The notes below the pieces were generated by a model, which was given only the letters and a program-made list of their open reading frames with translations, was not told the origin of the DNA and did not search any database. The position numbers were made by a program, and so were the translations under genes. A stretch of 64,000 nt of DNA, from NCBI RefSeq assembly GCF_014279835.1, contig NZ_CP047942.1, positions 744,001 through 808,000 on the forward strand, read 5' to 3'. The number at the start of each line of letters is the position of its first letter. The first letter of the stretch is position 1. Shown here one piece after another: positions 4,408 through 25,916 of the stretch. This DNA comes from Synechococcus sp. MVIR-18-1 (GTDB lineage: Bacteria > Cyanobacteriota > Cyanobacteriia > PCC-6307 > Cyanobiaceae).

Positions 4408-4447
4408 GACTTGACGTTTTGTATGCCCGATGTTGTGTGATTGATTA

Positions 4448-5521: not shown

Positions 5522-5665
5522 GTATGGAATTGAGATTCGCTGAAACTTAGGCGGGGCAATTTGTTATTGCTGCTGAATCTGATCCCATTCGTGCTGATTT
5601 TTGTGGGATGCCCTTGTCGGCTTGGTTTGATGCAATAAAACTCAATCGGTTTTTGGATCAAATTG

Positions 5666-6676: not shown

Positions 6677-6833
6677 GCCCTTCAACTGTCATTGATGACG
6701 CTAATGTCAGGGTGTAAAAATTGATCTTTTCACCCTGCATCTGTTGGTTGCCGTGGTTGGGATGATGCTTCTAAAGGATTAGATTAGCATGCTTTTAGAT
6801 TTGGATTGAGTCTACTTTAAAATTATTCTTTTC

Positions 6834-7682: not shown

Positions 7683-7775
7683 GATGTGAGTTGATCCGAA
7701 TCGTGCTCAATTCATCCTTTCCGATGTTTGCTGTCGAATCCAGTAGCTAATGCTTAGGGAAGTTTTTGTTCTCTG

Positions 7776-8630: not shown

Positions 8631-8653
8631 ACGACTTATCCCATGACCAAGCC

Positions 8654-9964
8654 ATGCCCTCAACCCTTGTCCTGAACGCTGATTTAGACGTCTGCCCAGC
8701 CCTTGGGACGTGGATCATCAACAACACCCAACTGCTATCTGGGTTTTCACTCTTGATCGCAGAAGACGTGCTGCAGGAGCTCGCGAAGCGCTATCCCTTG
8801 CAGGGCCTCTCGATCGTTCAGGCTCGGGCGATTCGCCAAGGCGGAGACATTGCGATGGCCGCCACGATCCTCAACGGTGAGATCAGTGGTCTCATTCACT
8901 TCCCCTCTCCACCTCAACGTCAAGGCAGGGATGTGCTGTCTGAGCCGTTGGTTCGTGCAGCACTGCTCCAAGACCTGCCGGTTGCCCTGAATCCAGCCAC
9001 GGCATCGGCGTTGATGCAGGGCGTGAAAAGAAGCCGCAGGGGGTATCTGATTTTTAATCCCGTCTCCGGTCAAGGAGATCCTGAAGCGGAGCTGGCCGAA
9101 ATTCGCTCTTATCTTGAGCCTCAGTTCATGCTGCAGATTTGGAAGACGCGACCCGATCGAGACCCCGCCGAACAAGCCAAAGACTTGATCAAGGAGATCA
9201 ATGCCTTTGATGCTGAAGGGGAGGGAGATTCGATCATCATTGCCTCGGGCGGCGATGGCACGGTTGGTGCCGTTGCTAGTGCCCTTCAAAACAGCAATAT
9301 TCCCCTTGGCATCATTCCCCGTGGCACCGCCAATGCCTTTTCGGTTGCGCTGGGAATTCCTACGGGATTGAAGGCCGCTTGCACCAATTTGCTCCTTGGC
9401 AACCTGCGTCGGGTTGATGTTGCTCTGTGCAATAACCGACCGATGATTTTGTTAGCTGGCCTCGGCTTTGAGGCAGGAATGGTGGATAAAGCGAGCCGTG
9501 AATTAAAGAACATTCTCGGACCCATGGCCTACATTTTTTCAGGTGCCCGGCAGCTGGTGGATCAGCAACCTTTCCACGCCACGATGCAGATTGATGGAAA
9601 GGACTACAGGCTTGATGCCAGCGCGATCACGATGGCCAATGCCGCTCCGGCCACATCCGTGATGGCCCAGGGTTTTGGAGAGGTGATTCCAGACGATGGA
9701 TTGCTCGAGGTGATCGTTGCTTCTCCGAAGGACCGCATCAGTGGGCTTTCGGTGCTCTCAAGTCTTGCTTGGTCAGCGATCATGAGCAGTAGCGCCAATC
9801 ACAACAACAATATTGCTTGTTTTCGAACCAAAGAACTACAAATTGAACTGGATGATGTTCAGAAATTGGTGATCGATGGTGAGGTTCTCGATGCGAAAAG
9901 TATTACTTTGAGTGTGAATCCTGGAGCCCTGCAGGTGGTTGCTCCAATCCCCTTGAAATCTTGA
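8654..9964 (+). CDS. fusion of methylglyoxal-synthase-like domain and diacylglycerol kinase
   Basis: Residues about 1-125 resemble methylglyoxal synthase (GGD followed by a LIHFPSPP segment), and residues from about 130 form a DagK/YegS-type lipid kinase with RGYLIFNPVSGQGD, SGGDGTVGAVASAL, PRGTANAFS and a C-terminal IPDDGLLEV and VIDGEVLDA. The kinase motifs are complete, so phosphorylation of diacylglycerol or a related lipid is likely. In the first domain the Asp of GGD is kept, but the N-terminal histidine region of real methylglyoxal synthases reads LNADLDVC, so this part may be a sensor rather than an enzyme. The stop overlaps the next start by 4 bases. Confidence 0.88.
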   Translation: MPSTLVLNADLDVCPALGTWIINNTQLLSGFSLLIAEDVLQELAKRYPLQGLSIVQARAIRQGGDIAMAATILNGEISGLIHFPSPPQRQGRDVLSEPLVRAALLQDLPVALNPATASALMQGVKRSRRGYLIFNPVSGQGDPEAELAEIRSYLEPQFMLQIWKTRPDRDPAEQAKDLIKEINAFDAEGEGDSIIIASGGDGTVGAVASALQNSNIPLGIIPRGTANAFSVALGIPTGLKAACTNLLLGNLRRVDVALCNNRPMILLAGLGFEAGMVDKASRELKNILGPMAYIFSGARQLVDQQPFHATMQIDGKDYRLDASAITMANAAPATSVMAQGFGEVIPDDGLLEVIVASPKDRISGLSVLSSLAWSAIMSSSANHNNNIACFRTKELQIELDDVQKLVIDGEVLDAKSITLSVNPGALQVVAPIPLKS

Positions 9965-11520
9965 ACTTCGCCAGTGATCCCAGCATCCAGCGGAAGATCA
10001 GCAAGATGGCCGCGCGCGTGCGCTGGAAGCATCCAGAGCTGATTCGCCAAGGGATTGATCAGACCCGACTCGTGATTGACCAGGGGAATGACAACCCTGG
10101 TAGCGACGATGCCTTTTACTTTTTGGTTCTTGGCGATAGTGGTACTGGTCGTCATCGCTTCCAGAGTCCTCCCCGTCGGATTGCTGAACGACTGCTACCG
10201 CATAAAGCGGATGCAGCTTTTCTGCTGCACACCGGAGATGTGGTTTATCTGGTTGGCGCTTTGGATCAGTACCGCGCCAACTTTTTAAGGCCCTACCGGG
10301 AATGGCTTGATCAGGGCAACGCTTGGAAAAGCATGAGCCCTGAAGGCTTGGTCTTTAATCAGCCATTTTTGCCAGTTCCTGGTAACCACGATTACTACGA
10401 CCTTTCATGGCCTGTTGCCTTGCTCGCGGGGCTGACCCTTCCGTTGCGCCGCTATTTGCAATGGTTTGATGATGTCGATGCCGGCTGGCGCGGCTCTCGC
10501 CAGGGTGAGGCCTATGCCCGCGTGTTTTTGGATGTTCTGAATCAAATCCCCCCAGCCCGGCTGACGAACCATCTCGAGTTGCATTACGACGCTGTTTGGG
10601 ATGGACAGCGATGTTTGCGATACCGGCCTGGTGTGAACACGCGTCTCCCCAATCGTTATTTTCGTTTCCGACAGGCTGGTGTTGATGTGTTTGCGATCGA
10701 TTCGAACACCCTGATGTCGCCCGAAAAACCAACGAATAATCTTCGCAACTTGCGAGGAGATTTGCGCAGTCTTGAAGAACGTCGAACCACTCTCTACAAA
10801 ACATTGGCGAGTAGCAACCTCGATGAAACCCACCGAGATGAACTGTTTGATGCGTTGGAAACGCTCCAGGAGGAATGCTTCGATCTTCAACGTCAAATTA
10901 AGCAACTCAATCAGATCAATCAAGCAGCGCTAGTTGATCATGAGCAACTGGAATGGCTCAAGGAGGGGTTAATCACATCCCATCGCGATCCAGAAGTGAG
11001 GGGCAGGATTTTGACGATGCATCACCCGGCCTATGTCACCGAGAAAACAAAATGCAACCAGGCCGATACGCATGCGATTCGCAGGCAATTGCGCGCTGTT
11101 TTCGATGCTGTTGTGAGGGCTCTAGGTGAGGATCTCGGATCGGCCAAACCCGTTGATCTTGTGCTGAGTGGGCACGCCCATTGCCTAGAGGTGCTTCGCA
11201 CCCATGACACGGGACATGCAGACAGCCACATCAACTGGGTGATTTGCGGCGGCAGCGGCTATGGATTGCGAGCTCAGCGACGGGAAGGTGCTGAGATTAC
11301 GGAACAAACAGTGGATGGAAAGACCAGGGTGGTGGCAACGAGCGAGCTGTTTATTGGGCGAAACTCGACTGATGCAGGGGGACGCGATGGCTACAGCGGT
11401 TTGCGTGTCGACGTTGCAGAGGGGCGCCCCCTCACCATCCGTTTAACGCCTTTGGTGTCGTGCCGAGATGGCAAGAGTTGGCTGGATGCAGATCCTGATC
11501 CGATCAGCTTGAGGTCGTGA
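9961..11520 (+). CDS. calcineurin-like metallophosphoesterase
   Basis: 519 residues with the metallophosphoesterase metal-binding blocks in order: LGDSGTG (near 57), HTGDVVY (near 95), PGNHDYYD (near 139), MHHPAY (near 355) and SGHAHCLEVL (near 400). A helical segment rich in Leu, Glu and Arg (about 260-325) lies between blocks and may be a coiled coil or cap. No signal peptide is present. The start is a TTG at 9961 overlapping the previous stop (TTGA), implying translational coupling to the lipid kinase; ATG at 10006 is an alternative. The substrate is unknown; a phospholipid or nucleotide phosphoester would fit the neighbour. Confidence 0.85.
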   Translation: MNFASDPSIQRKISKMAARVRWKHPELIRQGIDQTRLVIDQGNDNPGSDDAFYFLVLGDSGTGRHRFQSPPRRIAERLLPHKADAAFLLHTGDVVYLVGALDQYRANFLRPYREWLDQGNAWKSMSPEGLVFNQPFLPVPGNHDYYDLSWPVALLAGLTLPLRRYLQWFDDVDAGWRGSRQGEAYARVFLDVLNQIPPARLTNHLELHYDAVWDGQRCLRYRPGVNTRLPNRYFRFRQAGVDVFAIDSNTLMSPEKPTNNLRNLRGDLRSLEERRTTLYKTLASSNLDETHRDELFDALETLQEECFDLQRQIKQLNQINQAALVDHEQLEWLKEGLITSHRDPEVRGRILTMHHPAYVTEKTKCNQADTHAIRRQLRAVFDAVVRALGEDLGSAKPVDLVLSGHAHCLEVLRTHDTGHADSHINWVICGGSGYGLRAQRREGAEITEQTVDGKTRVVATSELFIGRNSTDAGGRDGYSGLRVDVAEGRPLTIRLTPLVSCRDGKSWLDADPDPISLRS

Positions 11521-11585
11521 ACTCTTGATTGAATGGATCACTGATTGCCTAGCAGTGGTGTTTCCTTTTTGGTGTGTTGATTGGC

Positions 11586-12191
11586 TTAATGCGAGTGATT
11601 GCGTTGATAGATTCTGAGCTGGTGACTGATCCATCCAGGGCCTAATAAGCCAAGAACGATGATGGTGAGTGAGGCGGTGAGCCGGCTTGAGAGCGTTCGT
11701 GCTTCTTCTAGGCCGCCCAATACAAAGGCGATGCCAACTAAGACACCGAAGACACCGGTAAATGTTCCACTGAGCGTGCGCAATAATTCTCCGATCGATC
11801 GTCCTTCAACAGCATCAGGATTGATGCCGACCCGAGAGCCTGAAAAAAAGCCAGTGATGCCTAAGACAACAATAAAGAGAAAGCGTTCTAAGGCCGTATT
11901 CGCTGGTGCAGCCCCATGTTGTTGAATATTGTTCACCATTGATGATGCTGTTCCTAGGAAACTTCCGCTGCAGAGTCCGATCCCAGACCACCAGAGCAAA
12001 GGTTGATGCAAGCGATTTCTCAGTCTGCTCAGCAAAATTAGCAAAAGGCAGCTTATGACTAAGCCTGCAAATAATGATGCTGTAAGTGTGATAAAATAGC
12101 CGATCGCAGCGGAAATAAGTAAAGCGCTCAAGTCGGATTCTCTACGGGGCTTTAACTTGAGCGGGGTTTCATTGATTGGATCGTTTTGCAT
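11586..12191 (-). CDS. multi-pass membrane protein, unknown
   Basis: 201 residues with four to five hydrophobic segments (around residues 24-55, 68-82, 104-120, 140-160 and 168-185) joined by short loops. Arg/Lys-rich ends suggest cytoplasmic termini. No family is recognised. It lies 27 bases downstream of the BASS-type transporter on the same strand, so the two are likely co-transcribed. Confidence 0.65.
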   Translation of the reverse strand: MQNDPINETPLKLKPRRESDLSALLISAAIGYFITLTASLFAGLVISCLLLILLSRLRNRLHQPLLWWSGIGLCSGSFLGTASSMVNNIQQHGAAPANTALERFLFIVVLGITGFFSGSRVGINPDAVEGRSIGELLRTLSGTFTGVFGVLVGIAFVLGGLEEARTLSSRLTASLTIIVLGLLGPGWISHQLRIYQRNHSH

Positions 12192-12218
12192 GGGTGTGAT
12201 TTCGTTGTTTTCGACGCA

Positions 12219-13073
12219 TTAAGCCTGTGATGTGGTTTTTTTGCGCCATTTCATGAAGGGTGCAGATCCGATTGCTGTGATCACGACGTAGCCAACGACA
12301 GCAGCCTTGATGTCCATCGCGCCGGGAGCCATCTGTTGAACGATCAACAACGCCAGGCCTGGATTACGCATGGAAAGAACCAGCGGAATAGTGCTGCGCT
12401 CGACGCTGTCTTCTCCGGCAATCGTAAACCCTAGAGCGAGTGCGATCCAGGTGAGGATCAGCATCAATAAGGCACCTTTGAGGTTGCCGATCAGCATCGG
12501 CGCTGCTTGTGGTAAAGCCACAATCAGGATTAAGACCAAGAGGGCTAATAACAGCGCAGTTGCTATTTTTTGAATCAGTGAATTCCAGCGTTCGGCCCAC
12601 TCACTACGCCATCGTCGGAGTGACACTCCCACCAGGAGTGGAATCAACTGCACGGTCAAGATCTGGAAGGCAACGTCTTGACTTGGGATATTCCACACGG
12701 TTTCACCTGCTTCGCTTGGCAGCTGACTGACCCAAAGCGGGACGCTGATGATGGCTGCGCAAGCTGTCCAAAATTGCAGCCTTGTTGCTAATTCAGGGTT
12801 CTCCGCTAGTTTTCTGCTCTTCAAGGCAATCATGGGAGCGCTTGGGCAGATTGCCATCAGCATCACTGCCATTTTGATCGCAGGCGAAAGACCATCTCCC
12901 AGAGGAGATTGCAATAGCAGAAGTGCTGCGAGTGGCATGGCAACGCAGGTGGCAAGCAACACGCGAATGAGCAAAGCAGGCCTGCGCTTGAGAAGCCCGA
13001 ATTGCAGACTGGGCAGGTTGAGGCCCAGTGACACCATGATGAAAAAGAGGACCAGTGAAATCAGGAGTGACAT
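12219..13073 (-). CDS. bile acid:sodium symporter-type (BASS) transporter
   Basis: 284 residues, almost entirely hydrophobic, with about nine to ten membrane segments. N-terminal FFIMVSLGLNL, LMAICPSAPMIALKSRK and a late SMRNPGLALLIVQQM motif resemble the BASS/arsenite-resistance superfamily, in which such segments form the unwound crossing helices of the transport site. The N-A/S-P-type motifs support a secondary transporter for an organic anion driven by sodium or protons. The substrate cannot be inferred. It is probably transcribed with the small membrane proteins on either side. Confidence 0.75.
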   Translation of the reverse strand: MSLLISLVLFFIMVSLGLNLPSLQFGLLKRRPALLIRVLLATCVAMPLAALLLLQSPLGDGLSPAIKMAVMLMAICPSAPMIALKSRKLAENPELATRLQFWTACAAIISVPLWVSQLPSEAGETVWNIPSQDVAFQILTVQLIPLLVGVSLRRWRSEWAERWNSLIQKIATALLLALLVLILIVALPQAAPMLIGNLKGALLMLILTWIALALGFTIAGEDSVERSTIPLVLSMRNPGLALLIVQQMAPGAMDIKAAVVGYVVITAIGSAPFMKWRKKTTSQA

Positions 13074-13118
13074 CGGAATAGGGGAAGATGTTTTGGTAAA
13101 CGGGGAATGGTGACTGGC

Positions 13119-13514
13119 TCAGATCAATCCGGAAAGCAGCAATAGAAATGCCAAGACTCCGATTACCAAAACAGCTGTTGCTGTGGCAATTGAAAGAGAA
13201 GGCTCATCTCGGTAGAGGTAGGGGTCGCTGCGTAGCCGAATGAGTTCACGTTTGTGTTGGCGCATGGCAATCAGCAATGTGAAGATCCCGACTGCGATGA
13301 ATCCCATCGACATCAGTTGCACGCCAATGTCTTGACTTGCATTTCCGTTGCCTCCTGCATCCCGGATCGCACTGATGATCTTGTCCAGCCCGAATCCGAA
13401 ACTGATCAGTGCGAGGGCCGTGCGGATCCAAGCCAGGGTGGTGCGCTCTGCGGCAGCTCGGTTGCGTGTTTTGGCCAATTCCGTGCTGGTATTGGACATC
13501 TCTGCTGACATCAT
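13119..13514 (-). CDS. DUF202 family membrane protein
   Basis: 131 residues. The N-terminal half has the DUF202 signature NRAAAERTTLAWIRTALALI, followed by three hydrophobic segments (about 29-45, 67-85 and 108-130). Proteins of this family (YidH-like) sit in the inner membrane; their function is not established. Two ATGs occur at the start (13514 and 13511). It is 46 bases upstream of the BASS-type gene on the same strand. Confidence 0.8.
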   Translation of the reverse strand: MMSAEMSNTSTELAKTRNRAAAERTTLAWIRTALALISFGFGLDKIISAIRDAGGNGNASQDIGVQLMSMGFIAVGIFTLLIAMRQHKRELIRLRSDPYLYRDEPSLSIATATAVLVIGVLAFLLLLSGLI

Positions 13515-13662
13515 TTACCTCTATTCCAAGATTAGAAACCATTTCCAATTCGGGCCTTAATCAATGATCCCGTTTGTGCCGAATTCTGCAGGTTGCTGCA
13601 AATGGTTTGTTTATTTTCATGTTTTGAGATCACAATTGTTTGAGACCTTACGCGGATGACGG

Positions 13663-14022
13663 ATGGAATGGGTTGAGCATGTTCTGACACACACTGCGGA
13701 GGGATTGCGCTTGTTGCTTGAGATCCTTTCGGTGCTATCGGTAGCCGTTGGCTTGGTTGCAGTTTTTAGCCCTGCTGGTCCACTCCGGCTTAGAGCGATT
13801 CCACCTCGACTTCTGCAACGAGGGCCCTTAACTTCCGCCCGCTTGACATTTGGCGGATGGATTGCTTTGGCTCTTGAATTTCAGCTTGGTGCTGATGTGG
13901 TGCAGACCACCATTAGCCGTGAAGCTTCTGCTTTGATTCAGCTTGGAGCAGTAGCGTTGGTGCGTACATTCCTGAATTACTTTCTGAGTTTGGAACTCAA
14001 AGAAAAAGAGCAGACCTCTTAA
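13663..14022 (+). CDS. DUF1622 family membrane protein
   Basis: 119 residues with three hydrophobic segments. The motifs GWIALALEFQLGADVVQTTI and the C-terminal VALVRTFLNYFLSLEL match DUF1622, a family of small bacterial inner-membrane proteins of unknown function. It is convergent with the arylsulfatase gene, and the sulfatase terminator lies inside its last codons. Confidence 0.8.
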   Translation: MEWVEHVLTHTAEGLRLLLEILSVLSVAVGLVAVFSPAGPLRLRAIPPRLLQRGPLTSARLTFGGWIALALEFQLGADVVQTTISREASALIQLGAVALVRTFLNYFLSLELKEKEQTS

Positions 14023-14034
14023 ATAGATCTGCTC
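14001..14034 (-). terminator. intrinsic terminator of arylsulfatase gene
   Basis: Read on the minus strand, the stem GAGCAGA / TCTGCTC (14034-14028 with 14014-14008) is followed by TTTTTCT. It lies 35 bases beyond the sulfatase stop and overlaps the 3' end of the convergent DUF1622 gene. Confidence 0.65.
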
Positions 14035-14068
14035 AAAGACATGCTGCATTTGTGTTGGCTTGGTTTCT

Positions 14069-16420
14069 CTATTCGAGATACTCCACGTGCATGGTGTGAA
14101 TCGTTCCGTTGAATTTAAATGGTGCCCGCTCGTGGTAATCCAGGGAAACTGGAGACCCGAGCGCTTGACCAACATCCAGGCAGTCATTAGCAGTGAACAG
14201 CAGCGCTGCCACTCTTGGCACAATGCCTTTCATCAGTTGTGTGCCATTAAGGGACACTTTGATCGCTAGTGGACCTCTTGGATTGTCGTCGGTGTGTTCG
14301 GTCACCACCTCCAGCTTGTGTCTGCCAGCGGGTAGTGGCTGATCAGAGCGCAGCTTGGTGCGTTCAATGATGAATAGGTTGTACTCGTAGGTGAGGATCC
14401 CTTGATCCATGAACAGGGTGAGACCACCTGAATTGGCACCAAGTTTGTAAAGCACTCCACTGGCATTCTCTGGAATGTCCATGTCGATCGTGACTTTGTT
14501 GTTTAGGCAACCAAGACGTGGAGCACAGGTCTCAGGAATGCGGGTAATGGTGCCAGGCAACTCCCAGGATGTTGCTTCCGGGGCCACCTTCAGTTCGGGG
14601 TGGAAGATGACGGTCCAGAGACCACCACCAATCGGCATGTTTTTGTATTTCGCCGATTCCACCAGGAACAGATTCTTGAGCATCTGCAGTTTTTCTGGAT
14701 GCTCATTGGCAACATTCTTGCTCTGACTGAAATCCTCGTCGAGGTTGTAGAGCTCCCAGACGTCGGTGTCTGGTGACCAGGTGAGGATGTCGGGGTCGAC
14801 GCCCTTCACCCAAGGCAGGCGTGGCCCCACGGCTCCAGCCATCCAGCCATTGTGGTAGATGGATCGAGAGCCCATGATGTCGAAGAATTGGGTTTTGAGT
14901 GCACCCGGTGCATCCGGCGCATTGAAGGCATAGGCAAAGCTGGTGCCGTGAATCGGGTCTTGTTCAACGCCATTCACCACCTTGGGTGGAGTGATTCCTA
15001 CCAGCTCGTAGATCGTTGGCACGAGATCGTTGCAGTGGTGGAACTGCGACCGAGGTTTGGGATCTGGCTTGATGCCCTTTGGCCACTTGATCGCCATCGG
15101 ATTGCGAGTGCCACCGAGGTAGGAGGCCATCAGCTTCATGCCTTGATAAGGCGTACTGCCAGCCCAGGCCCAGCCTGCGTGATACATGTTGTCCACCAGC
15201 GGGGAGCCAAGCGCATCCAGCCCGCCTAAATCGTCGAGCACTTTGATGTGCTCATCGATCTCTGTGGCAATGGAGTTTTGAGCGAGCAGCTCAGAGATCG
15301 TGCCGTCCTGGCCCTCGCCCGATGAGCCGTTATCGCCCCAGATGTAAACAACCAGGGTGTTTTCTTCGTACCCGAGCCGTTCAATTTCAGAGACAATGCG
15401 GCCAACCTGATGATCCGTGTGTTCGGCAAAGCCTGCCAGCACTTCCATCAAACGCGACTGAAAGGGCTTCTGGTGCTCGGGAATGGAATCCCAGGCTGCC
15501 ATCCTGGGATGGCGTGGTGTGAGTTGGGCGTTCTCTGGAATCCAGCCTTTGGCTTTGGCGTTCTTGAAGGCACGCTCGCGGTAGGCGTCCCAGCCCTCAT
15601 CAAACTTGCCTTTGTACTTATCAGCCCATTCCTTGTTCACGTGGTGAGGGCCATGCAGGGCTCCTGAAGCCCAGTACATGTAGAAGGGCTTGTCAGGACT
15701 CAGGGCTTTGTGGGTTTGAAGCCAGTTGATGGCGTCATCGGCGAGGTCTTCACTGATGTGATAACCCTCCGCTGGCGTTTTCGGTGGCAACACCACTGTG
15801 GTGTTGCGCACCAGATGCGGCTCGTATTGAGAGGCCTCTCCTGCCAGGAATCCGTAGAAATATTCGAATCCCAGCCCCGTTGGCCAGTTCTCAAAGGGAC
15901 CTGCAGCCGTGGTTTGGTTGGTGGGTGTGTTGTGCCACTTGCCCCATGCACCGGTTGAGTAGCCGTAATTGCGTAGTACGTCGGCCTGGAGTGCACAACT
16001 TTCAGGAATTCGTCCTGAATAACCGTCCCAGTCGTTCGCGAATTCACAGATCTGGCCATTGCCCACGAAGGTGTGGTTGCGACCGCTGAGCAGTGAGGAG
16101 CGCGTTGGTGAACACATCGCTGTGGTGTGGAAGCGATTGAAGCCCACGCCACCGTCTTTCACGTTCTGCAAGGTGGGCGTATGGATATCGCCGCCAAGGC
16201 ACTCCGGCAGTGCCGGACCTGCATCATCAATCAGCACCACAAGAATATTGGGTGCATCGTCTGGCAGCCTTTGGGGTTCGGGTAGCGGACTGTATGTCGA
16301 CTCCTGCATCGTCGTTCCGGCTTTGCTGCCCGACGGCTTGGCAGGGAACGGCAGGATTGAACCGTCGACGTGTGGATTGTTGCCCATGGATGAGAAACCA
16401 GTCGTGCGTTGGCTGACCAT
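14069..16420 (-). CDS. type I arylsulfatase
   Basis: About 783 residues. NILVVLIDDAG (near 60) starts the alkaline-phosphatase-like sulfatase fold and supplies metal ligands. The signature MCSPTRSSLLSGR contains CxPxR; its Cys (residue 103, codon 16112-16114) is the one converted to formylglycine. AWGKWHN (near 165), HGPHH and VYIWGDNGSSGEGQDG (near 365) supply further active-site residues, and a C-terminal beta-rich extension (about 600-783) resembles that of other large arylsulfatases. There is no signal peptide, unlike many secreted sulfatases. An ATG at 16420 follows a GTG at 16423. The maturation enzyme is encoded at 6834 and two AraC regulators lie upstream. Confidence 0.92.
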   Translation of the reverse strand: MVSQRTTGFSSMGNNPHVDGSILPFPAKPSGSKAGTTMQESTYSPLPEPQRLPDDAPNILVVLIDDAGPALPECLGGDIHTPTLQNVKDGGVGFNRFHTTAMCSPTRSSLLSGRNHTFVGNGQICEFANDWDGYSGRIPESCALQADVLRNYGYSTGAWGKWHNTPTNQTTAAGPFENWPTGLGFEYFYGFLAGEASQYEPHLVRNTTVVLPPKTPAEGYHISEDLADDAINWLQTHKALSPDKPFYMYWASGALHGPHHVNKEWADKYKGKFDEGWDAYRERAFKNAKAKGWIPENAQLTPRHPRMAAWDSIPEHQKPFQSRLMEVLAGFAEHTDHQVGRIVSEIERLGYEENTLVVYIWGDNGSSGEGQDGTISELLAQNSIATEIDEHIKVLDDLGGLDALGSPLVDNMYHAGWAWAGSTPYQGMKLMASYLGGTRNPMAIKWPKGIKPDPKPRSQFHHCNDLVPTIYELVGITPPKVVNGVEQDPIHGTSFAYAFNAPDAPGALKTQFFDIMGSRSIYHNGWMAGAVGPRLPWVKGVDPDILTWSPDTDVWELYNLDEDFSQSKNVANEHPEKLQMLKNLFLVESAKYKNMPIGGGLWTVIFHPELKVAPEATSWELPGTITRIPETCAPRLGCLNNKVTIDMDIPENASGVLYKLGANSGGLTLFMDQGILTYEYNLFIIERTKLRSDQPLPAGRHKLEVVTEHTDDNPRGPLAIKVSLNGTQLMKGIVPRVAALLFTANDCLDVGQALGSPVSLDYHERAPFKFNGTIHTMHVEYLE

Positions 16421-16496
16421 CACTTGTTAATAGTTGGTTCAGCCTTTGTCTCTGCTTGGGAACTCAAATTTGCACGGATGGGATCTTTGGCAACGA

Positions 16497-17524
16497 TCAG
16501 CGATTCGTTGACTTCAGCCAGGTCTCGCTTGGAGTTTCTGCAAACAGCTTTTGGTAGGCCTTGGCGAAATGTCCGCGGCTCTGGAATCCGTAATGCTGGG
16601 CAACTTGGCTGATGGTTTTAAACCTTTCGTCTTCCCGTGCTTCCGTTGATCGCAGGATCCAATTCACTCGCTCGAGGCGTATATGTTTCATCATTTCCAT
16701 CGGCCCCATTCCGAATGCTTCTTTTGCACCTTGGATCAGGGTTCGTCTTGATGCAAACAGCGATTCGCTGATTTGATCAAGATTGCTTCCAACATGAGCG
16801 TTTTCGAAGGCCAAATTGACAAATTCTTTGATGAGGATCTGTCGGGGAGATGGTGCGTGAGGCAAATAAGAAATGTTGGGCTTATCGCTAATAGACTTTA
16901 CTAATTCTGCGTAGAGATGATTTGTTATTTGCCGTTTTTTTCTGATGTTAACGCTGGTTTAACGAGAAGCCTCTGACATATTTTTCGAAAATGTGCATGC
17001 ATCCTAGGGGTGATCTGCAATGCATTGCTGGCTTCGAGTTGTTCAATTAGATCTTCTCGTTCACAGTAAGAAATGAAAGCATTGAAACGGCTGATAGAGA
17101 GAATGATGAGATAAGTGGTTGTATTCGCTGTGAGTTGGAAATGAGATTCTTTCTGCCCTTGGCGAAACCCATTGAGGGAATAGGGCGCAATCGGTTTGTT
17201 GAACATCAGGTGCTCATCGGCCAGTCCTGTGGCTTCAAAACAAAAACTCATGCAATCGGGTCCTCTATCTCCATTCAGGAGTAGGCGCTGATTGGTGCGG
17301 ATTTCTAGCAGGACCATACTGCCTAGGCCTGTCAAGCTGAACTGTCCATGCAGTGCGCCTCTGCTGACCTGAACCACGTCAAAGGATTTTCCGACCAGCA
17401 TGAACAGCTGCTTCAGTTCGCTCGCAGAGTGAAATCCAGTTGTTATGTGCTGATCAGTCCGATCACCATTTGATAGTTGTGAGAAGGTTCCAAGATGAGA
17501 TGAGCTGATGCTGCTGGCAGACAC
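16497..17524 (-). pseudogene. AraC-type regulator split by a -1 frameshift at an A-run
   Basis: Two minus-strand frames together form one protein resembling the intact regulator next door. The first (17524-16925, GTG start, AGGAGG upstream) holds the N-terminal sensing part, and the second, open through 16497, holds the AraC helix-turn-helix part (ESLFASRRTLIQGAKEAFGM and YGFQSRGHFAKAYQKLF). The break is at A7 (16935-16941 on the plus strand as T7). Reading the run as one base longer, or slipping back by one, joins TSEKK to RQITNHLYAELVKS and continues without a stop. The sequence is A AAA AAC in the zero frame, a known slippery type. It may be a recent pseudogene, a base-count error, or an expressed frameshifted gene. 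Confidence 0.8.
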
Positions 17525-17642
17525 GATCGTTACTTAGACCTCCTTGTTGTAAGCGAGTTTTTCTGCATCAATGATTTTGGTGCATCGCGGGAGTGTGTGT
17601 CTTGAAGGGGTAGGGATTCGTCTTTCTTGGATTCATTTTCGT

Positions 17643-18671
17643 CTACATCGTATGGATCATGTTTGCTTTCGAAAGTGTTTGCCTTGGTGATTCGCCAAAT
17701 TGATTTTGATAGGAAGCTGAAAAATGTCCTCGGCTTGAGAAGCCAAAATGACTTGCAATTTCTCCTACCTTATTTAGCTTTAGTTCTCTTCGTAACTCTT
17801 TGGATCTGAGGAAGTGATTCACTTCCTCGAGGCGGATTAAGCGAAGCAGCTCCATTGGTCCCATTTGGAAGTTTTCTTTGCAACCTTGTATGAGAGTGCG
17901 CCTTGAGCTAAAGAGAATATTGCTGACATCATCAAGCTTGAGCGGGTTTGTGCTGTTATCGAATCCCCAACTGATCAATTTGCAAACCAGTTGTTGGCGT
18001 GGTGCTAGTTCGAATGCCTTGAAGGATTGATTGTTTCTGCTTGAAAGCGCTTCCAGCATCAGCGCGAAGATCTCTCCTGTATGCAGTGAACGCAATTCTG
18101 GGTTGTTAGATGGGTTGTTTAAATGCCAGCAAAGATTGTTTGCAATTGCAGAATAATGTGCTGGATTTAGCTGTAATGAATTGCTGGTATAGAGACTATC
18201 CCGTAATTCAAACGCTCCGCAGCATTCAAGAAATCTACAGAATTTTTTGGCTGAGGTGATGGCGATAACAGTTGTTGAGCTTGCTGTTAATTGGAAATGG
18301 CTTTCGTTGAGATCTAGTTTGAATCCATGTAGGGAATGGGATTCAATGGATTGGCAGTAAACTTTGTGATCAGAATGGTTCCCACTCGTTTCTAAACTAA
18401 ACGTGATGCAATCTTGTCCGCGTTCGCCGTTGAGTAAGAGCAGCTGATTGGTTTCAATACTAAAAATGCTGAGATCATTGAGGTGAACAACAGCGAAGTG
18501 GCCTTGAAGTTGACCGGTAGACAGCTGTAAAACATCAAATTGTTTGCCAAGCCTTAAGAGCACAGCGGCTAATTCGCTGGCGGAGTTAAATTTGGTACTC
18601 CAACTAATGCTTTGCGATGAGCCGGGAGGGACAGAATATTGGTTGGTTATTGCGCTTGGCGTCTGCAACAT
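17643..18671 (-). CDS. AraC-type transcriptional regulator
   Basis: About 342 residues. The N-terminal 200 residues are a sensing domain without recognisable family. The last 100 residues form the AraC DNA-binding part, with the first helix-turn-helix in NILFSSRRTLIQGCKENFQM and the second in SHFGFSSRGHFSASYQNQFG. The ATG at 18671 is preceded by GAGGAG at good spacing; a TTG at 18689 opens the frame earlier. The protein closely parallels the split regulator 119 bases downstream, indicating duplication. Position beside the sulfatase suggests control of that gene; the signal is unknown. Confidence 0.88.
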   Translation of the reverse strand: MLQTPSAITNQYSVPPGSSQSISWSTKFNSASELAAVLLRLGKQFDVLQLSTGQLQGHFAVVHLNDLSIFSIETNQLLLLNGERGQDCITFSLETSGNHSDHKVYCQSIESHSLHGFKLDLNESHFQLTASSTTVIAITSAKKFCRFLECCGAFELRDSLYTSNSLQLNPAHYSAIANNLCWHLNNPSNNPELRSLHTGEIFALMLEALSSRNNQSFKAFELAPRQQLVCKLISWGFDNSTNPLKLDDVSNILFSSRRTLIQGCKENFQMGPMELLRLIRLEEVNHFLRSKELRRELKLNKVGEIASHFGFSSRGHFSASYQNQFGESPRQTLSKANMIHTM

Positions 18672-18820
18672 GCTTGGCTCCTCACGCAATGGTGTGCAAA
18701 TTATGCATAGTTTTCGCTAAAAATGGCAATAAGACTCCCTAAGTACTTTGTTGGGGACCATTGCGGTTTCGAAATGAGCCTTCGTTCTGTCCCTGCGGGC
18801 TGCGGGTTTCTAGGTTTGTG

Positions 18821-19885
18821 ATGTCTGTGTCTCGCCTTTTCGATGTGCTGGTCGCTGGGGGATGCATTCGCCCCACCACGCTGCTTGCTGGGTTAAGGCA
18901 TGGATCCGTGTCCCCAAGGCGTTTTCCCGTTGCGTTGTTGCTTACGGCCAGCGGCTTGGCGGTCGAGCCGTTTGCCTGGCTGCAAGCCCTGATCTATGGG
19001 CGCAGGATTCAGGCTTGCGCCTGCCCTGATAACCCAGTGGTGGTGATTGGTCACTGGCGCAGCGGCACCACCTATCTGCACCAGCTGTTGGCGGCTGATC
19101 CAGCTGCAGCCACCGCTCGCAACCACTTCACCATTGCGCCGCAGGCTGCCTTGGTGCTGAAACCGCTGCTCAAGCCCCTGTTGAAGTGGGGGATGACACA
19201 GCATCGCCCCATCGATGCTGTGCCCTGGGGAGCAGAGGATCCCCAGGAAGACGAGGTGGGGTTGGCCCGGCTCACCATGGACACCAACATGGCGGGCATT
19301 GCTTTTCCTCAGCATTACCCAACGCATTTCCGCCGCGCTGTGCTCAACAGCACGCCCGAGTTTGAGCAGACGTTGCTTCATTTCACTCGCCTTACCTGGT
19401 TGCATGAGGGAGCTGGTAAAAACCACCTGGTGATCAAAAATTCTGCGCACACCGCACGGGTTGTTTTGCTACTGCGTCTGTTTCCGCGGGCCCGGTTTGT
19501 CTATCTGTACCGGTGGCCGATCGATTCGATTCGTTCGCTTGCGCAGGTCAAGCAGCGGTTAGCTCAATTGGTAGGCCTGCAAGAGCCTCCATCCAGCCTG
19601 CGACAAGTGAAGGAAACAGCGGCGGCCCATGACCAATTGCAAGAGGCCTTTGCTCGCTCGCGGCATTTGATCCCCAAGGGGCAGCTGGTGGAGATCGCTT
19701 ACGACGACTTGGTGCAGTCACCGCTGAATACGCTGCAGCGGATTTACAGCGCTCTTAAAATTGGGGGTTGGGACTCTGCGCGCGAGGCGATTGCGGCTCG
19801 CATTGCCAAGGGCAGGGCGTATCAAGCGGAGCCTGTTGTCTTAGATCCGGAGGCTGAGCAACGCCTGCAGGAGTTGCTCAGCTGA
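18821..19885 (+). CDS. sulfotransferase family protein
   Basis: About 354 residues. GHWRSGTTYLHQLL (residues 77-90) is the 5' phosphosulfate-binding loop of PAPS-dependent sulfotransferases, and the segment FPRARFVYLYRWPIDSIRS matches the region binding the 3' phosphate. A late YDDLVQSPLNTLQRIY block is also typical of the family. The N-terminus has no clear signal peptide. The frame opens at a TTG at 18761, but ATG at 18821 fits better. The acceptor, lipid or carbohydrate, is unknown. Its location next to a sulfatase suggests opposite steps in sulfate-ester metabolism, though co-function is an inference. Confidence 0.85.
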   Translation: MSVSRLFDVLVAGGCIRPTTLLAGLRHGSVSPRRFPVALLLTASGLAVEPFAWLQALIYGRRIQACACPDNPVVVIGHWRSGTTYLHQLLAADPAAATARNHFTIAPQAALVLKPLLKPLLKWGMTQHRPIDAVPWGAEDPQEDEVGLARLTMDTNMAGIAFPQHYPTHFRRAVLNSTPEFEQTLLHFTRLTWLHEGAGKNHLVIKNSAHTARVVLLLRLFPRARFVYLYRWPIDSIRSLAQVKQRLAQLVGLQEPPSSLRQVKETAAAHDQLQEAFARSRHLIPKGQLVEIAYDDLVQSPLNTLQRIYSALKIGGWDSAREAIAARIAKGRAYQAEPVVLDPEAEQRLQELLS

Positions 19886-19912
19886 GCCGGAGGTGTCTCT
19901 ATGGCGGACCGG

Positions 19913-20878
19913 TTACTGACCGAAGGCCACCTGACAGGCTGCATTGAGCAATTGGGCCTCATTGGCATTGAGCGGTGCTCCGCCGTTGAGGGTGCCATCG
20001 CGGCAGTTGGCGTTGAAGCGCAGCGTGTCGTAACCGTTGTCGGCTTCAAAACTCACCACATCCCCAGTGGCCGTCACGCTGGGGTAATAGAGGGAGTAAT
20101 CGGAGTTGGGGACTTCGATGTAGCTCACTTGACTGGTTTGAGCTGAATTCACCAGCCTGTTGATGGTGCCAAAGGTGGCCATGCCAGCAAGACCCCAGGC
20201 GGCTGCTTGGCCGGGATACCAACGCCAATTGTTGTAATAGGACCCGCCATACCAGCCGTTGTTCCAGGGGCGATTGTTCGACCAGCTCGATCCGCTGTAC
20301 CAACCGTTGCCGTAGCGATCCCAGTTGTTCACGGCATCGCGGCGGGTGTTGGAGCGGTTGTTCACCCGATCATTGCGGCCGCTTTGGCGTTGATCCGTGC
20401 GGCTGGTGCGTCCCTGCTGACGGGAATCAACGTTGCTGCTGCGCGAGTTTTGGCGCGTTCCCCGGTTGTCGGTCCGGCTGGTTTGGCGCGTATCACGGGT
20501 GCCGCTGCGCGCGCTTTGCCGGTTGCTGCTCGTGCTGCTGCGCGTGCTTTGGCGGTTGCTGCGGGTGGACTGCCGGCTCCCTTGGCGGCTGCCGCTGTAG
20601 GAACTAAATCCGGTGCGGCCACTGCTGGAGCGACTGCTGGAGCGCGAACCACTGCTGCGAGAGCTGCTGCGTGATCCCCCTCCCCTGGATCCTCCGCCGC
20701 CTCTCGAGCCGCCCCCGCCGCGTCCGCCGCGTTGGCTGATCAGCAGCTCTTCTGTGGCAGACGTTGTTGTGGCAGAAGTTGGTGTCGCCTCAAAGGCGGA
20801 GAGGGCGGCTGCTGGTTGCAGCATCAGCAAAACGCCGATCGCTCCTGCCAGGCCTGTCTTTTGGACTTTGTTTGTCAT
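19913..20878 (-). CDS. secreted Ser/Arg/Gly-rich low-complexity protein
   Basis: 321 residues: a signal peptide (GLAGAIGVLLMLQPAAALSA), a Gly/Arg stretch (RGGRGGGGSRGGGGSRGGG), then a long repetitive Ser/Arg/Gln/Thr region (about 70-180) with recurring NRQSTRS-, TRxxR-type units, then a Trp/Tyr/Asn/Gly segment (about 185-220) and a compact C-terminal domain with two cysteines. The cationic repeats suggest an intrinsically disordered segment that binds an acidic polymer or surface; this is inference. The start overlaps the stop of the upstream gene (ATGA), so the two are coupled. Confidence 0.75.
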   Translation of the reverse strand: MTNKVQKTGLAGAIGVLLMLQPAAALSAFEATPTSATTTSATEELLISQRGGRGGGGSRGGGGSRGGGSRSSSRSSGSRSSSRSSSGRTGFSSYSGSRQGSRQSTRSNRQSTRSSTSSNRQSARSGTRDTRQTSRTDNRGTRQNSRSSNVDSRQQGRTSRTDQRQSGRNDRVNNRSNTRRDAVNNWDRYGNGWYSGSSWSNNRPWNNGWYGGSYYNNWRWYPGQAAAWGLAGMATFGTINRLVNSAQTSQVSYIEVPNSDYSLYYPSVTATGDVVSFEADNGYDTLRFNANCRDGTLNGGAPLNANEAQLLNAACQVAFGQ

Positions 20879-21375
20879 TTTTGAATGGCCTCCATGAGGC
20901 GATCGCAGCCGTTGTCAAAGCAAGACACATCCACACGGCCGTTGCCGGCAAAGGCCAAGCCGAGGCGGGTGCGGCCTTGAATGGCATCCCCGCCTTGGGT
21001 CAGCACATCGGCCAGAAAGGTGGGATTGTTCACGCAAAACGCCTTGCTGTTGAAGCAAAGCTCCTCTGTTTTGAAATTGATCGAGGCGCTTTTCACTGAT
21101 GTCCACGGTGCGCCTGGAGAGGCCTGTCCTTCGATGCGGACGTAGGGATCTTCAATCACGCGGTAACTCACCGTGCGTGAGCCAAATCGATGGCGATATT
21201 CCGTGGAATCATCCACATCAATGGCCTTCACTTGGCAAGAAAAGTTGGGGGAGGTTGGGGTGCTGCAGGTGGTGTCGAGCACGTAAAGCTCCTCGGCAAA
21301 TACCGCTGGAGCACCAAGGCCGCTGCAGAGCGCCAGCAGAGCTGTCAGCACCTTGCTTCGTTTGGAAACAAGCAT
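20875..21375 (-). CDS. secreted protein, unknown
   Basis: About 166 residues from the ATG at 21375, which directly precedes a signal peptide (KVLTALLALCSGLGAPAVFA, cleavage near VFA-EE). The frame is open to 21411, but that adds an unlikely tail. Mature part contains six cysteines (for instance DTTCSTPTSPNFSC, EELCFNSKAFC, DVSCFDNGC), suggesting disulfides. No family recognised. It overlaps the start of the Ser/Arg-rich protein gene by 4 bases, so the pair probably acts together outside the cytoplasm. Confidence 0.7.
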   Translation of the reverse strand: MLVSKRSKVLTALLALCSGLGAPAVFAEELYVLDTTCSTPTSPNFSCQVKAIDVDDSTEYRHRFGSRTVSYRVIEDPYVRIEGQASPGAPWTSVKSASINFKTEELCFNSKAFCVNNPTFLADVLTQGGDAIQGRTRLGLAFAGNGRVDVSCFDNGCDRLMEAIQK

Positions 21376-21449
21376 GAAAAGGGTGAGTGCGCGGAGGGAT
21401 ATGACCTCCATCCCTTCAAGATGGCCACAGCGAGAGCGGTGTGGTTGAA

Positions 21450-21719
21450 ATGTGCACCAATGGGATCAAGGAGCGCCGGCAACGCCTCCACGACATCCTG
21501 TTGGCTCTCCTGGCCCAACAGGGTGATTTAGAGCTGATGGATGTGGATAATCCCTCCGGCTTGGTGAGTGGGGGCAGCCGAGATACGCCAGCCGATGCCG
21601 CCCGCTGGCTGGAGCGAAATCGACGGGTGTTGCAGCGCTATCAAGCTTTGGTGCGTACAGCGGTCACGCTCGATGCCCTGCTTGATGCGGAAGACGGCAT
21701 CGCTCAGGAACCTTCTTGA
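21450..21719 (+). CDS. small cyanobacterial protein, unknown
   Basis: About 89 residues, helical and charged (GIKERRQRLHDILLALLAQQ, WLERNRRVLQRYQALVRTAV), with no membrane segment or signal. A GTG at 21441 precedes the ATG at 21450. It overlaps the 3' end of the convergent MFS gene by 16 bases. No function can be assigned. Confidence 0.6.
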   Translation: MCTNGIKERRQRLHDILLALLAQQGDLELMDVDNPSGLVSGGSRDTPADAARWLERNRRVLQRYQALVRTAVTLDALLDAEDGIAQEPS

Positions 21720-23242
21720 TGGAGCAGTTGTTGCTCGCGGCCAATGATCAACAGCAGCAAGCTGATCGCAAACAGCAGCCCCGTGAGCACTGCCACAACC
21801 AGCATCGTTCCCGCTAGCCCCTGGGTGTAGGCCTCCCGCAGAAGATTGAGAAGCTGCTGAGACGCCGATCCCTCAAGCGAGATCGGGCTATTGCGCAAAA
21901 ACAAACGAATCTGCTCATCGCGTTGGGGCAGATGCTCCAAGCCCAGGCCTGCGGCCTGCATGCGGCTGTGCAGATCATGGAAGCCAAAGCCGCTGATCAT
22001 CGTGCCGCTGGCGGCGAGCCCAAAGGCAAAGCCCAGCTGGCCGCTGGTGGTGCGAAAGGCCAGCACCGATCCAAAGCAATCCTCTGGTGCTTCCTGCACA
22101 AACAAGGCGGATTGCGGCACCGCCACAAAGGCCAGGCCGAGGCCGGCCAGCATCAGGGCCGGCAGCAGCTGCCAGTAGGGCGTTTGCACTTGCACGATCG
22201 CGAATAGGGCCAGGCCGAGCACCAGCGCCAGGCTGCCGCCCGCCATCAACATCAAGGTGCGCCGGCCAGGACCCATCCAGCGCCCGGCGTAGATCCCCGC
22301 CACGCCAAAACAGATCAGGAAGGGCAGCTGAGCGAAGGCCACCGCACTGGTGCTGTATCCCTGCACCAGCTGCCAGAAGTTGCTGGTTTGCAGCTGCACC
22401 ACCGCTTGGGCCACATTCCAGCCGATCCCATTGATCACGGCTGCAGCAAAGAACCCGCGCAGGTACAGCCGCGGCGGAAACATCGGTTTGCGGCTGCGCC
22501 GCTCAAGGCTGATGTGCAGCACAAACAACAGCAGTCCGCTGCAGGCCGGCAGCCAGAAGCTGGGGCTGCGCAGCCCTAAAGCGGCGTGGTTGATGCCAAA
22601 TAAAAACAGCACCATGGCGATCGCGATGCTCGCCAGGCCAGGGAGGTCGGGCTTGAGGGCGCGATTGCCTGGAATCGCTGGCAGCAGTGCTGGTAAGAGC
22701 AGCAGGCTGGCGCTGCAAATGATCGGCACCAGCAAAAAAGACAGGCGCCAATTGATGGTGGCCATCCAGCCACCGATCAGGGAGCCGCTGATGAAGCCCA
22801 CCACGATCAGCAGGTTCCAGAGGCCCAGGGCGGCGCTCACGCCAGCGGCGGGTGTCACGAAGCGCACGCTGGCAAAGGTGCTGGTGAGCACCGAGCCGAG
22901 GGCGATGCCGGTGAGGGCACGGCCGAGCAGGAAGAGGCCCGCCTCGCCCGACAGCATTGACAGCAGATTCCCCACCACCGCGAGCAGCAGCGAGGCCGCC
23001 AGCACCCTGCGCCGGCCAAAACGGTCGCCGAAAAAGCCCATCACCAGCACCGATGCGGCTTGGGCCAGGGTCGACACGCTGGCGCCGAGGGCCAACACAG
23101 CGCCATGCATCTGCAAGGCATCGCTGGCTTTCACCAAGGCGATATTGGCCACGCTGGGGTCGATCAGCTGCAGGCTGGCGAGGATGCCTAGAAAGGGGAT
23201 GCAAGCCAGCGATTGCAATTCCCTTAAATTGCCAACTCTCAC
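21704..23242 (-). CDS. MFS drug-exporter-type transporter (DHA2-like)
   Basis: 512 residues with about 14 hydrophobic segments, the number typical of the DHA2 class. The loop GFFGDRFGRRRVL (about 70-82) is the MFS motif between helices 2 and 3, and GRALTGIALGSVL matches motif B. Such proteins usually export drugs or amphipathic compounds by proton antiport. Starts at GTG 23242. The substrate is unknown. It is monocistronic in appearance, converging with the small gene at 21450. Confidence 0.85.
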   Translation of the reverse strand: MRVGNLRELQSLACIPFLGILASLQLIDPSVANIALVKASDALQMHGAVLALGASVSTLAQAASVLVMGFFGDRFGRRRVLAASLLLAVVGNLLSMLSGEAGLFLLGRALTGIALGSVLTSTFASVRFVTPAAGVSAALGLWNLLIVVGFISGSLIGGWMATINWRLSFLLVPIICSASLLLLPALLPAIPGNRALKPDLPGLASIAIAMVLFLFGINHAALGLRSPSFWLPACSGLLLFVLHISLERRSRKPMFPPRLYLRGFFAAAVINGIGWNVAQAVVQLQTSNFWQLVQGYSTSAVAFAQLPFLICFGVAGIYAGRWMGPGRRTLMLMAGGSLALVLGLALFAIVQVQTPYWQLLPALMLAGLGLAFVAVPQSALFVQEAPEDCFGSVLAFRTTSGQLGFAFGLAASGTMISGFGFHDLHSRMQAAGLGLEHLPQRDEQIRLFLRNSPISLEGSASQQLLNLLREAYTQGLAGTMLVVAVLTGLLFAISLLLLIIGREQQLLHQEGS

Positions 23243-23414
23243 TGGGTTCTCACGCGTTTTCCATCAGGGCAGCGCCAACGGCACAAGGGGCTGGACTTGG
23301 CTGCCGGTGAGCGTTTAAAGGCTGTATGGGGGAAGGGCTCAGTCGTCTTGCTCCTAGCAAGGCCCTGGCTCTTCTGGCCAGCTCTGGCAATCTGGGTCAA
23401 CTTTCGGCCTCTGC

Positions 23415-25916
23415 ATGGCACCGCTCGGACTGTCCGCATTGCGTTCACGGCTGAGCCGCGGCTCATCAGGGAAGGGCTGGCAACCACCAGAGGCCAGCTG
23501 GAGCCGTTCGTTTGGCTTGGGCTGGCAGTCCCCGTTCACGGTGCGCTACGCCAGCAACCTCGACGATGGCCCCTGGCATGGCATGCCCCTGGGTGGTTTT
23601 GGTGCCGGTTGTATCGGCCGCAGCTCCCGTGGTGATTTCAACCTTTGGAACCTTGATGGCGGTGAGCATTGGTACGGCAGCATTCCCGATTGCCAATTCG
23701 CGCTTTGGGAACAGCAAGGCGATCAGGTGCGCGTGCATGCCTTGGCCACAGAGCCAACGCGTGATGACTCCAGGCCGGAGTCAGGCAAGCCTCTGAGCAG
23801 CTGGCAGTGGTATCCCGCCAGCACGGAGGAGACCAGCACCGGTACCTATGCCGCTCGCTATCCCCTGAGTTGGAATCACTACGCCGGGGTGTTTCGCGCT
23901 GAGGTGAGCTGCGAGGCGTTCAGCCCGATCCTTCCGGGTGATTACCAACGCAGCAGTTATCCGGTGGCGGTGTTCCGCTGGACGCTCAGCAACCCCACCA
24001 ACAAGCCCTTAGATCTGTCGTTGCTGCTGAGTTGGCGCAACACGGTGGGCTGGTTTACCAACACCGATTCCTCGGCAGAGGTGCACTTCCGTGATGACGG
24101 CAGCCCCGAGCACAACTACGCCCCAGCGATTGGAGCAGGCGATGGCCAGAGCAACCGCTGGATCGATGGCGATGGCCTGAGCGGGGTGCTGCTCGATGGC
24201 AAGCGCTCCACGCCGGTGGCGGAAGGGGAAGGTCAGTGGTGTCTGGCTCTACCAGACACGTTGGAAGGGGTGGAGCTGATGCGCTGCAGCCGCTGGGATC
24301 CCAGTGGTGATGGCGCTGAGCTCTGGCAGCCCTTTGCCGCGGGTGGGGTGATCCCCGATAGCAACAACGATCGCACCAGCCGTAAGGGTGAGCACGCCAG
24401 TGCGGCGATCGCCGTGAAATTCACCCTGGCGCCGGGTGAAACCCGAGAGATTCCGGTGGCGATCAGCTGGGATCTGCCAGTCACGAGCTTTGCGACCGGG
24501 GTGCGCGACCTGCGCCGCTACACCGACTTTTATGGCGCTGATGGCTGCCATGCGGCGGCGATTGCGGCAGAAGCACTGCGCGATTGGACGTCTTGGCACG
24601 AGCAAATCGAAGCCTGGCAAGCGCCGGTGTTGGCGCGCAAGGAGCTTCCTGAGGAGCTGCGCATGGCGCTGTTCAACGAGCTCTATGACCTCGCCAGTGG
24701 CGGCAGCCTCTGGACGGCCGCCAGCTCCAAGGATCCCTATGGCCGCTTTGGGGTGCTCGAGTGCCTCGATTACGCCTGGTACGAAAGCCTTGATGTGCGT
24801 TTGTACGGCTCCTTTGCGCTGTTGCAGCTCTGGCCGGAGCTGGATAAGGCGGTGATTCGCAGCTTTGCTAGGGCCATCCCTGCGGCAGATGCCACCCAAC
24901 GGCCGATCGGTTGGTATTTCACCCAGGGCCGCGGCCGAGTGGAAGCAGACCGCAAGGTGAAAGGTGCTACGCCTCACGATTTGGGAGCACCGAATGAGGT
25001 GCCGTTTGATGCCACCAACTACACCGCCTATCAAGACTGCAATCTCTGGAAAGATCTCGCCAGCGATTACGTCTTGCAGGTGTGGCGCACGTTCAAATTG
25101 GCGCCCACCGGAGAAGACCTGAGCTTTCTGGCGGAGTGCTGGCCTGCGGCGGTGCAGGCGTTGCATTACCTCAAGCAATTTGATGTGAATGCCGATGGCC
25201 TGCCCGATAACGGCGGTGCGCCGGATCAAACCTTTGATGATTGGCCGCTCAAAGGGGTAAGTGCCTACTGCGGTGCGCTTTGGATCGCGGCCTTGGAAGC
25301 GGCCTTGGCGATGGCCCAACGGCTGCAGCTGGAGCTGGGATTGGAGACCGGCGATGAGCAGCACACCTTCAGTGGCTGGCTGGAGCAATCACGCGCGAAT
25401 TTTGATGCGCTGCTTTGGAACGGTGAGTACTACGACATCGATGCTGAAAGCGGCACGCCGGTGGTGATGGCCGATCAGCTTTGCGGTGATTTTTATGCGC
25501 GCTTGCTGGAGTTACCGCCGGTGGTGAGTGAGGCCAACAGCCGCAGCACCTTGAAGGCGGTGAAGGAAGCCTGCTTCGACAACTTTGCTGGCGGAACGCT
25601 CGGGGTGGCCAATGGTTTGCGCCGTGATGGCACACCCCTGGATCCGAATGGGACGCACCCCTTGGAGGTGTGGACGGGGATCAACTTTGGAATCGCCAGC
25701 TATTACCGCTTGATGGGAGAGGGCAAAACCGCAGAAGCGATTTGTTCAGCGGTGGTGACCCAGGTGTATTCGGGGGGCTTGCAATTCCGCACCCCAGAAG
25801 CGATCACGGCCGTGAACACCTTTCGGGCCTGCCATTACCTGCGGGCGATGGCGATTTGGGGCCTCTGGGCAACGCACACCAATTGGGAAACGATACCTGG
25901 GGCTAGTAATGATTAA
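23415..25916 (+). CDS. GH116 family beta-glucosidase/glucosylceramidase-like enzyme
   Basis: 833 residues. The N-terminal part (about 45-380) has GMPLGGFGAGCIGRSSRGDF and beta-rich sequence, the C-terminal part is an alpha/alpha barrel, as in GBA2 and bacterial GH116 enzymes. The family nucleophile Glu fits E449 in FGVLECLDYAW and the acid/base Asp lies in PDQTFDDW (about 603-610). GVANGLRRDGTP and LEVWTGINFG further match. Family members hydrolyse beta-glucosides or glucosylceramide. There is no signal peptide, so it probably acts in the cytoplasm. The substrate in cyanobacteria is uncertain; a glucosylglycerol-type or glycolipid glucoside is possible. Confidence 0.88.
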   Translation: MAPLGLSALRSRLSRGSSGKGWQPPEASWSRSFGLGWQSPFTVRYASNLDDGPWHGMPLGGFGAGCIGRSSRGDFNLWNLDGGEHWYGSIPDCQFALWEQQGDQVRVHALATEPTRDDSRPESGKPLSSWQWYPASTEETSTGTYAARYPLSWNHYAGVFRAEVSCEAFSPILPGDYQRSSYPVAVFRWTLSNPTNKPLDLSLLLSWRNTVGWFTNTDSSAEVHFRDDGSPEHNYAPAIGAGDGQSNRWIDGDGLSGVLLDGKRSTPVAEGEGQWCLALPDTLEGVELMRCSRWDPSGDGAELWQPFAAGGVIPDSNNDRTSRKGEHASAAIAVKFTLAPGETREIPVAISWDLPVTSFATGVRDLRRYTDFYGADGCHAAAIAAEALRDWTSWHEQIEAWQAPVLARKELPEELRMALFNELYDLASGGSLWTAASSKDPYGRFGVLECLDYAWYESLDVRLYGSFALLQLWPELDKAVIRSFARAIPAADATQRPIGWYFTQGRGRVEADRKVKGATPHDLGAPNEVPFDATNYTAYQDCNLWKDLASDYVLQVWRTFKLAPTGEDLSFLAECWPAAVQALHYLKQFDVNADGLPDNGGAPDQTFDDWPLKGVSAYCGALWIAALEAALAMAQRLQLELGLETGDEQHTFSGWLEQSRANFDALLWNGEYYDIDAESGTPVVMADQLCGDFYARLLELPPVVSEANSRSTLKAVKEACFDNFAGGTLGVANGLRRDGTPLDPNGTHPLEVWTGINFGIASYYRLMGEGKTAEAICSAVVTQVYSGGLQFRTPEAITAVNTFRACHYLRAMAIWGLWATHTNWETIPGASND

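Follow-up and report, generated by a model that had tools for sequence, protein, structure and literature searches.

A probable young frameshift pseudogene among adjoining AraC-type regulators of Synechococcus sp. MVIR-18-1

An AraC-type regulator gene (gene B) of Synechococcus sp. MVIR-18-1 is split between two reading frames in the window, the whole stretch of 64,000 nucleotides that was analysed. The break most probably reflects an ordinary gene loss of recent date, or else a rare sequencing slip, and not a programmed switch of reading frame. The preferred reading, to which we assign a probability of about 0.77, is that gene B is a young pseudogene disabled by an isolated one-base deletion. 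One C beside a run of seven As would have been deleted in the lineage of the window; the shifted frame reaches a TAA two codons past the AAC. The initial annotation of this region had left loss of function, sequencing error and expressed frameshifting open; all three are retained here, the second as a considerably less probable reading than the first and the third as an improbable one.

Gene B combines intact orthologues in its relatives with a disabling indel in the window, which is the constellation expected of a frameshift pseudogene. Like the frameshift pseudogenes and singleton frameshifted genes of a prokaryotic survey (PMC3711429, excerpt), it has a single disabling indel, intact relatives and two halves that are still recognizable. 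It differs from them in that its break happens to hold an in-phase slippery heptamer.

The split regulator and its neighbours

Gene B starts with a GTG at position 17524 and runs for 199 codons to a TAA at 16927-16925 (minus strand). The letters of the zero frame at its 3' end (16945-16925) are TCA GAA AAA AAC GGC AAA TAA, just as the initial annotation had read them, and the -1 phase that it assigned to the heptamer was confirmed. Its further statement that a -1 shift restores the second half also holds: the -1 frame, entered at 16940, translates as KKRQITNHLY... and stays free of stops to 16500 (147 amino acids). The description of the gene as a split AraC regulator rests on this second half, whose helix-turn-helix scores above the curated cut-offs in a Pfam scan (PF12833 [HTH_18], 54.6 bits vs. 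a cut-off of 33.6; PF00165, 41.9 bits vs. 26.6), whereas a Pfam scan returns nothing for the first half at an E value of 0.01. The 199-residue product would therefore lack the DNA-binding domain and is presumably non-functional.

Table 1. Coordinates of the split regulator, the features at its break and the adjoining genes (window positions).
Feature	Position	Strand	Description
Gene B, first half	16925..17524	-	Zero frame, 199 aa, premature TAA; from ORF list, Pfam scan and orthologue alignment
Gene B, second half	16497..16940	-	-1 frame, AraC helix-turn-helix; from translation, PF12833 and PF00165, 97% identity to G022
Seven-A run and following C	16934..16941	-	A-run at 16941-16935; one extra C in G022
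Perfect inverted repeat, 9 bp	16861..16933	-	GGCAAATAA (16933-16925) and TTATTTGCC (16869-16861); no spacer after the heptamer
Gene A, intact paralogous AraC-type regulator	17643..18689	-	98.5% identity with the copy in G022 over 264 aa
Sulfatase gene	14069..16423	-	Downstream of gene B; PF00884, 186 bits

The two halves might each retain a function of their own, as a free sensor domain and a DNA-binding domain re-initiated from a TTG at 16865, which opens an ORF of 122 amino acids that spans the helix-turn-helix matches. However, the first 130 bases of the -1 frame from 16940 contain neither ATG nor GTG, and no ribosome-binding site is visible by eye in the 20 bases before the TTG, so that separate action of the halves is scarcely credible.

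Gene B lies between the paralogous gene A and the sulfatase gene (Table 1). Control of the adjoining sulfatase by the two regulators is only a guess from their position, and a literature search on AraC regulators and sulfatases in marine Synechococcus retrieved nothing on this subject. Photosystem II genes in the genome (PF00421, 907 bits) mark it as cyanobacterial, since of the 14 control genomes only that of the cyanobacterium gives a match.

Comparison with orthologues and the sister species

The second half of gene B was searched in 31 genomes of the genus, including that of the window, and gave matches in 25 of them. With orthologues defined by at least 64% identity to this half (the next matches reach 53% or less), gene B is carried by ten genomes, namely that of the window and nine others (loci L003 to L011; 64-97% identity over the second half). 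All nine orthologues are open across the position of the break (345 to 467 codons from stop to stop). The initial annotation had argued from the intact paralogue next door that the protein should be continuous; the continuity itself is borne out by the orthologues, but the paralogue shares only 41-42% identity with gene B and is a poorer test of it than these closer sequences.

The nearest relative, the sister species G022 (97.7% identity over 3.4 kb), has seven As followed by CC at the position of the break, where the window has seven As followed by a single C. Its codons GAA AAA AAC CGG CAA encode E-K-N-R-Q and differ from the window by this one base. The cause is therefore not a count of seven instead of eight As, the possibility that the initial annotation had raised. 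The comparison of both counts in related genomes that it proposed is answered by an intact gene with seven As in G022 and by the other eight orthologues, which have neither the A-run nor the heptamer at this position.

Positions 4446-11548 and 11941-25900 of the window align to G022 with 97.4% and 94.8% identity, respectively. The gap analysis covers this pair of blocks, about 21 kb in all; less similar blocks at 28.4-43.8 kb hold further gaps. Within the pair, no uncompensated indel other than the gap at 16934 falls inside an ORF of the window. The remaining gaps comprise a single base at 12212, which falls between ORFs of the window but inside a 135-aa ORF of the sister, four gaps in multiples of three in the ORF at 19913-20878, and a compensated pair at 21113/21120. 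About 270 bases (11668-11940 of the window) are apparently missing in G022, in the counterpart of the 201-aa ORF at 11586-12191.

The same comparison bears on the possibility that gene B is intact in the organism and that the record is short of one base beside the A-run. Miscounted bases cluster at homopolymers, and the break adjoins one; the conserved second half (see below) would equally fit an intact gene. However, the run is as long as that of G022, the difference lies in one of the two Cs that follow it, and the genome consists of one contig with a listed completeness of 99.93%. The absence of any other uncompensated indel from the ORFs in the aligned 21 kb argues against a generally error-prone record. 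In the prokaryotic frameshift survey, singletons with intact relatives, which gene B resembles, are expected to be sequencing errors and not genuine indels (PMC3711429, excerpt). A missing base in the record thus accounts for the break with a low but appreciable probability, clearly below that of a genuine deletion. No second strain of the window species was found, and the base count is that of one assembly.

A search for DNA similarity in 251 genomes of the family matched four, all of the same genus and including that of the window. Scans with the locus of paralogue A and with a DNA pattern over the break returned no relative, although near genomes may have been excluded from them. In another genome of the genus, G008 (C1, 3114742-3156545), three AraC-like matches of identical score and a similar fourth lie within 42 kb, which suggests repeated copies.

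The heptamer and expression across the break

The heptamer A AAA AAC (16940-16934, minus strand) is situated directly at the change of frame and in the X XXY YYZ phase (phase 2) that is characteristic of programmed -1 frameshifting. Taken by itself, the motif is no rarity: the 15 copies of AAAAAAC on the two strands of the window are at chance level (12.9 expected; a count of 15 is reached in 34 of 100 shuffles), and the genome holds AAAAAAAC 102 times, 43 times on the forward strand and 59 times on the reverse. Across the 47 ORFs of the window with at least 150 amino acids (16,493 codons), 44 heptamers of whatever sequence fit the X XXY YYZ pattern in phase; AAAAAAC occurs twice within these ORFs and is in phase only at the break of gene B. 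Motif and break do coincide, but G022, which has the same heptamer in the same phase inside an intact gene B, shows the motif to be independent of the break. Because a -1 slip in G022 would leave the frame, the heptamer is most plausibly plain coding sequence, its codons specifying lysine and asparagine, rather than a purpose-made shift signal.

The element that might stimulate a shift of the ribosome, typically a structure some 5-9 nt downstream of the heptamer, is missing from the predicted folds. The only strong stem, formed by the 9-bp inverted repeat, begins immediately after the heptamer (0 nt) and drops from -13.1 kcal/mol to -9.4 after opening of one nucleotide and to -5.6 after opening of two, for which reason it was rejected as a stimulator. 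G022 lacks this stem (-6.2 kcal/mol), its right arm differing by a cluster of substitutions, and the repeat was judged incidental. The fold of a 102-nt segment from the A-run has a z-score of -2.04 (7 of 200 shuffles are as low), and those of two shorter downstream segments have z-scores of 0.83 and 0.45. Folds of 108 nt at spacers of 7-9 yield -6.9 to -10.9 kcal/mol, but this energy resides in a hairpin some 90 nt further on, which G022 has as well; this candidate was likewise rejected. In these pseudoknot-free folds, no stem starting at spacers of 4-10 was predicted, and no Shine-Dalgarno-like or purine-rich element is visible by eye upstream of the heptamer. A single template switch at the inverted repeat that would yield both the deletion and the differences in the right arm is not claimed, because the outgroup codons are ambiguous about the lineage that changed and one of the four differences would stay unexplained.

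These results also weigh on the reading of a real but leaky break, at which -1 slippage on the heptamer or insertion of an A by the polymerase would restore a useful regulator. A -1 shift would indeed join the halves, with K at the junction instead of the N of G022, and the conservation of the second half would agree with its continued use. There are precedents for frameshifting on A_AAA_AAC in a cluster of IS elements, where it is proven without an established stimulator (PMC4066793, excerpt), and in a halophilic archaeal virus (PMC5009743, excerpt). In Escherichia coli, however, A_AAA_AAC is far less prone to shifting than A_AAA_AAG (PMC5009743, excerpt), and a survey in this species indicates that the bacterial ribosome is less tolerant than its eukaryotic counterpart of shifts such as that from AAC to AAA (PMC4066793, excerpt). 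Slippage of the polymerase is hardly favoured by the length of the run: in a large share of bacterial genomes, A or T runs are avoided in coding regions from nine onward, although some bacteria may show slippage on shorter ones (PMC1088944, excerpt), and with seven As the run of gene B stays below the roughly nine or more A or T of transcriptional slippage. Taken with the absence of a split from all nine orthologues, this renders a useful leaky regulator unlikely.

Gene B shares with established cases of programmed -1 frameshifting (dnaX, IS elements; PMC4066793 and PMC5009743, excerpts) the in-phase heptamer and the downstream coding sequence in the -1 frame. It differs from them in that the frame change is not conserved, the orthologues being single-frame throughout, in that a suitably spaced stimulator is lacking, and in that its heptamer is the less shift-prone variant in E. 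coli. With transcriptional slippage (mxiE, Thermus dnaX; PMC1088944, excerpt), it has the A-run at the break in common; the run comprises seven and not nine As, and the gene of G022 is intact without slippage.

Read-through of the break is therefore plausible in traces and unlikely at a useful level; chance slippage at A AAA AAC would yield full-length protein in trace amounts only. It is similarly doubtful that the pre-existing heptamer cushioned the deletion, with low-level slippage or A-insertion supplying some full-length regulator. If this were true, a strongly expressed regulator would have become a weakly expressed one, in the sense of a 'savior' indel (PMC5009743, excerpt).

Divergence and dispensability of the regulator pair

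The substitutions that separate the window from G022 are compatible with a deletion so young that its consequences are scarcely visible. The second half of gene B differs by 3 of 145 amino acids and has a dN/dS of 0.07 (12.5 synonymous and 3.5 non-synonymous differences), a conservation that counts against the pseudogene reading; the deletion, if real, is recent, and decay has barely begun. The ratio is the same in the sulfatase gene (0.07; 21 synonymous, 5 non-synonymous) and amounts to 0.24 in paralogue A (9 synonymous, 8 non-synonymous) and 0.54 in the first half of gene B (5 synonymous, 9 non-synonymous). When the 12 amino-acid differences in gene B were polarized with eight outgroup orthologues, five fell on the branch of the window, four on that of the sister, and three were unclear. 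Two changes on the window branch, F to L in the second half and I to V in the first, affect positions that are invariant in all eight outgroups, which is the case for none of the changes on the sister branch; a clear excess of amino-acid changes on the broken branch was not found.

The dS of the second half (16500-16934) is 0.145, about 3.6 times that of the first half, paralogue A and the sulfatase gene (0.038 to 0.040). A recombination tract is a possible explanation.

The neighbourhood of gene B in its relatives suggests that a loss would be tolerated, as a related regulator adjoins the gene and members of the pair come and go. A close sulfatase (at least 89% identity) adjoins gene B in seven of the nine orthologue loci, and gene A (at least 68% identity) stands beside it in four. 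In G007 (L040, 3434-3702), only a remnant of gene A was found, with residues 7-99 spread over two frames, just upstream of a gene B that is open, and in 8-kb stretches of G028 and G009, no gene A was found beyond gene B itself (in G008 and G017, the check covered a short flank). Conversely, a stretch of G001 carries an A-like gene (69%) and no close gene B; the best match to the second half in that genome reaches 52%. This patchy occurrence gives the regulators, and the pair as a whole, a dispensable appearance. As one member is absent or decayed more than once among the relatives, a plain loss of gene B would not be surprising.

The case illustrates that a slippery heptamer lying at a break by chance can readily suggest programmed frameshifting, even though the same heptamer stands in the intact frame of G022. 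What remains for the biology of the organism is of small significance: of two adjoining regulators next to a sulfatase gene, one has probably been lost recently, and the pair is patchily distributed among the relatives.
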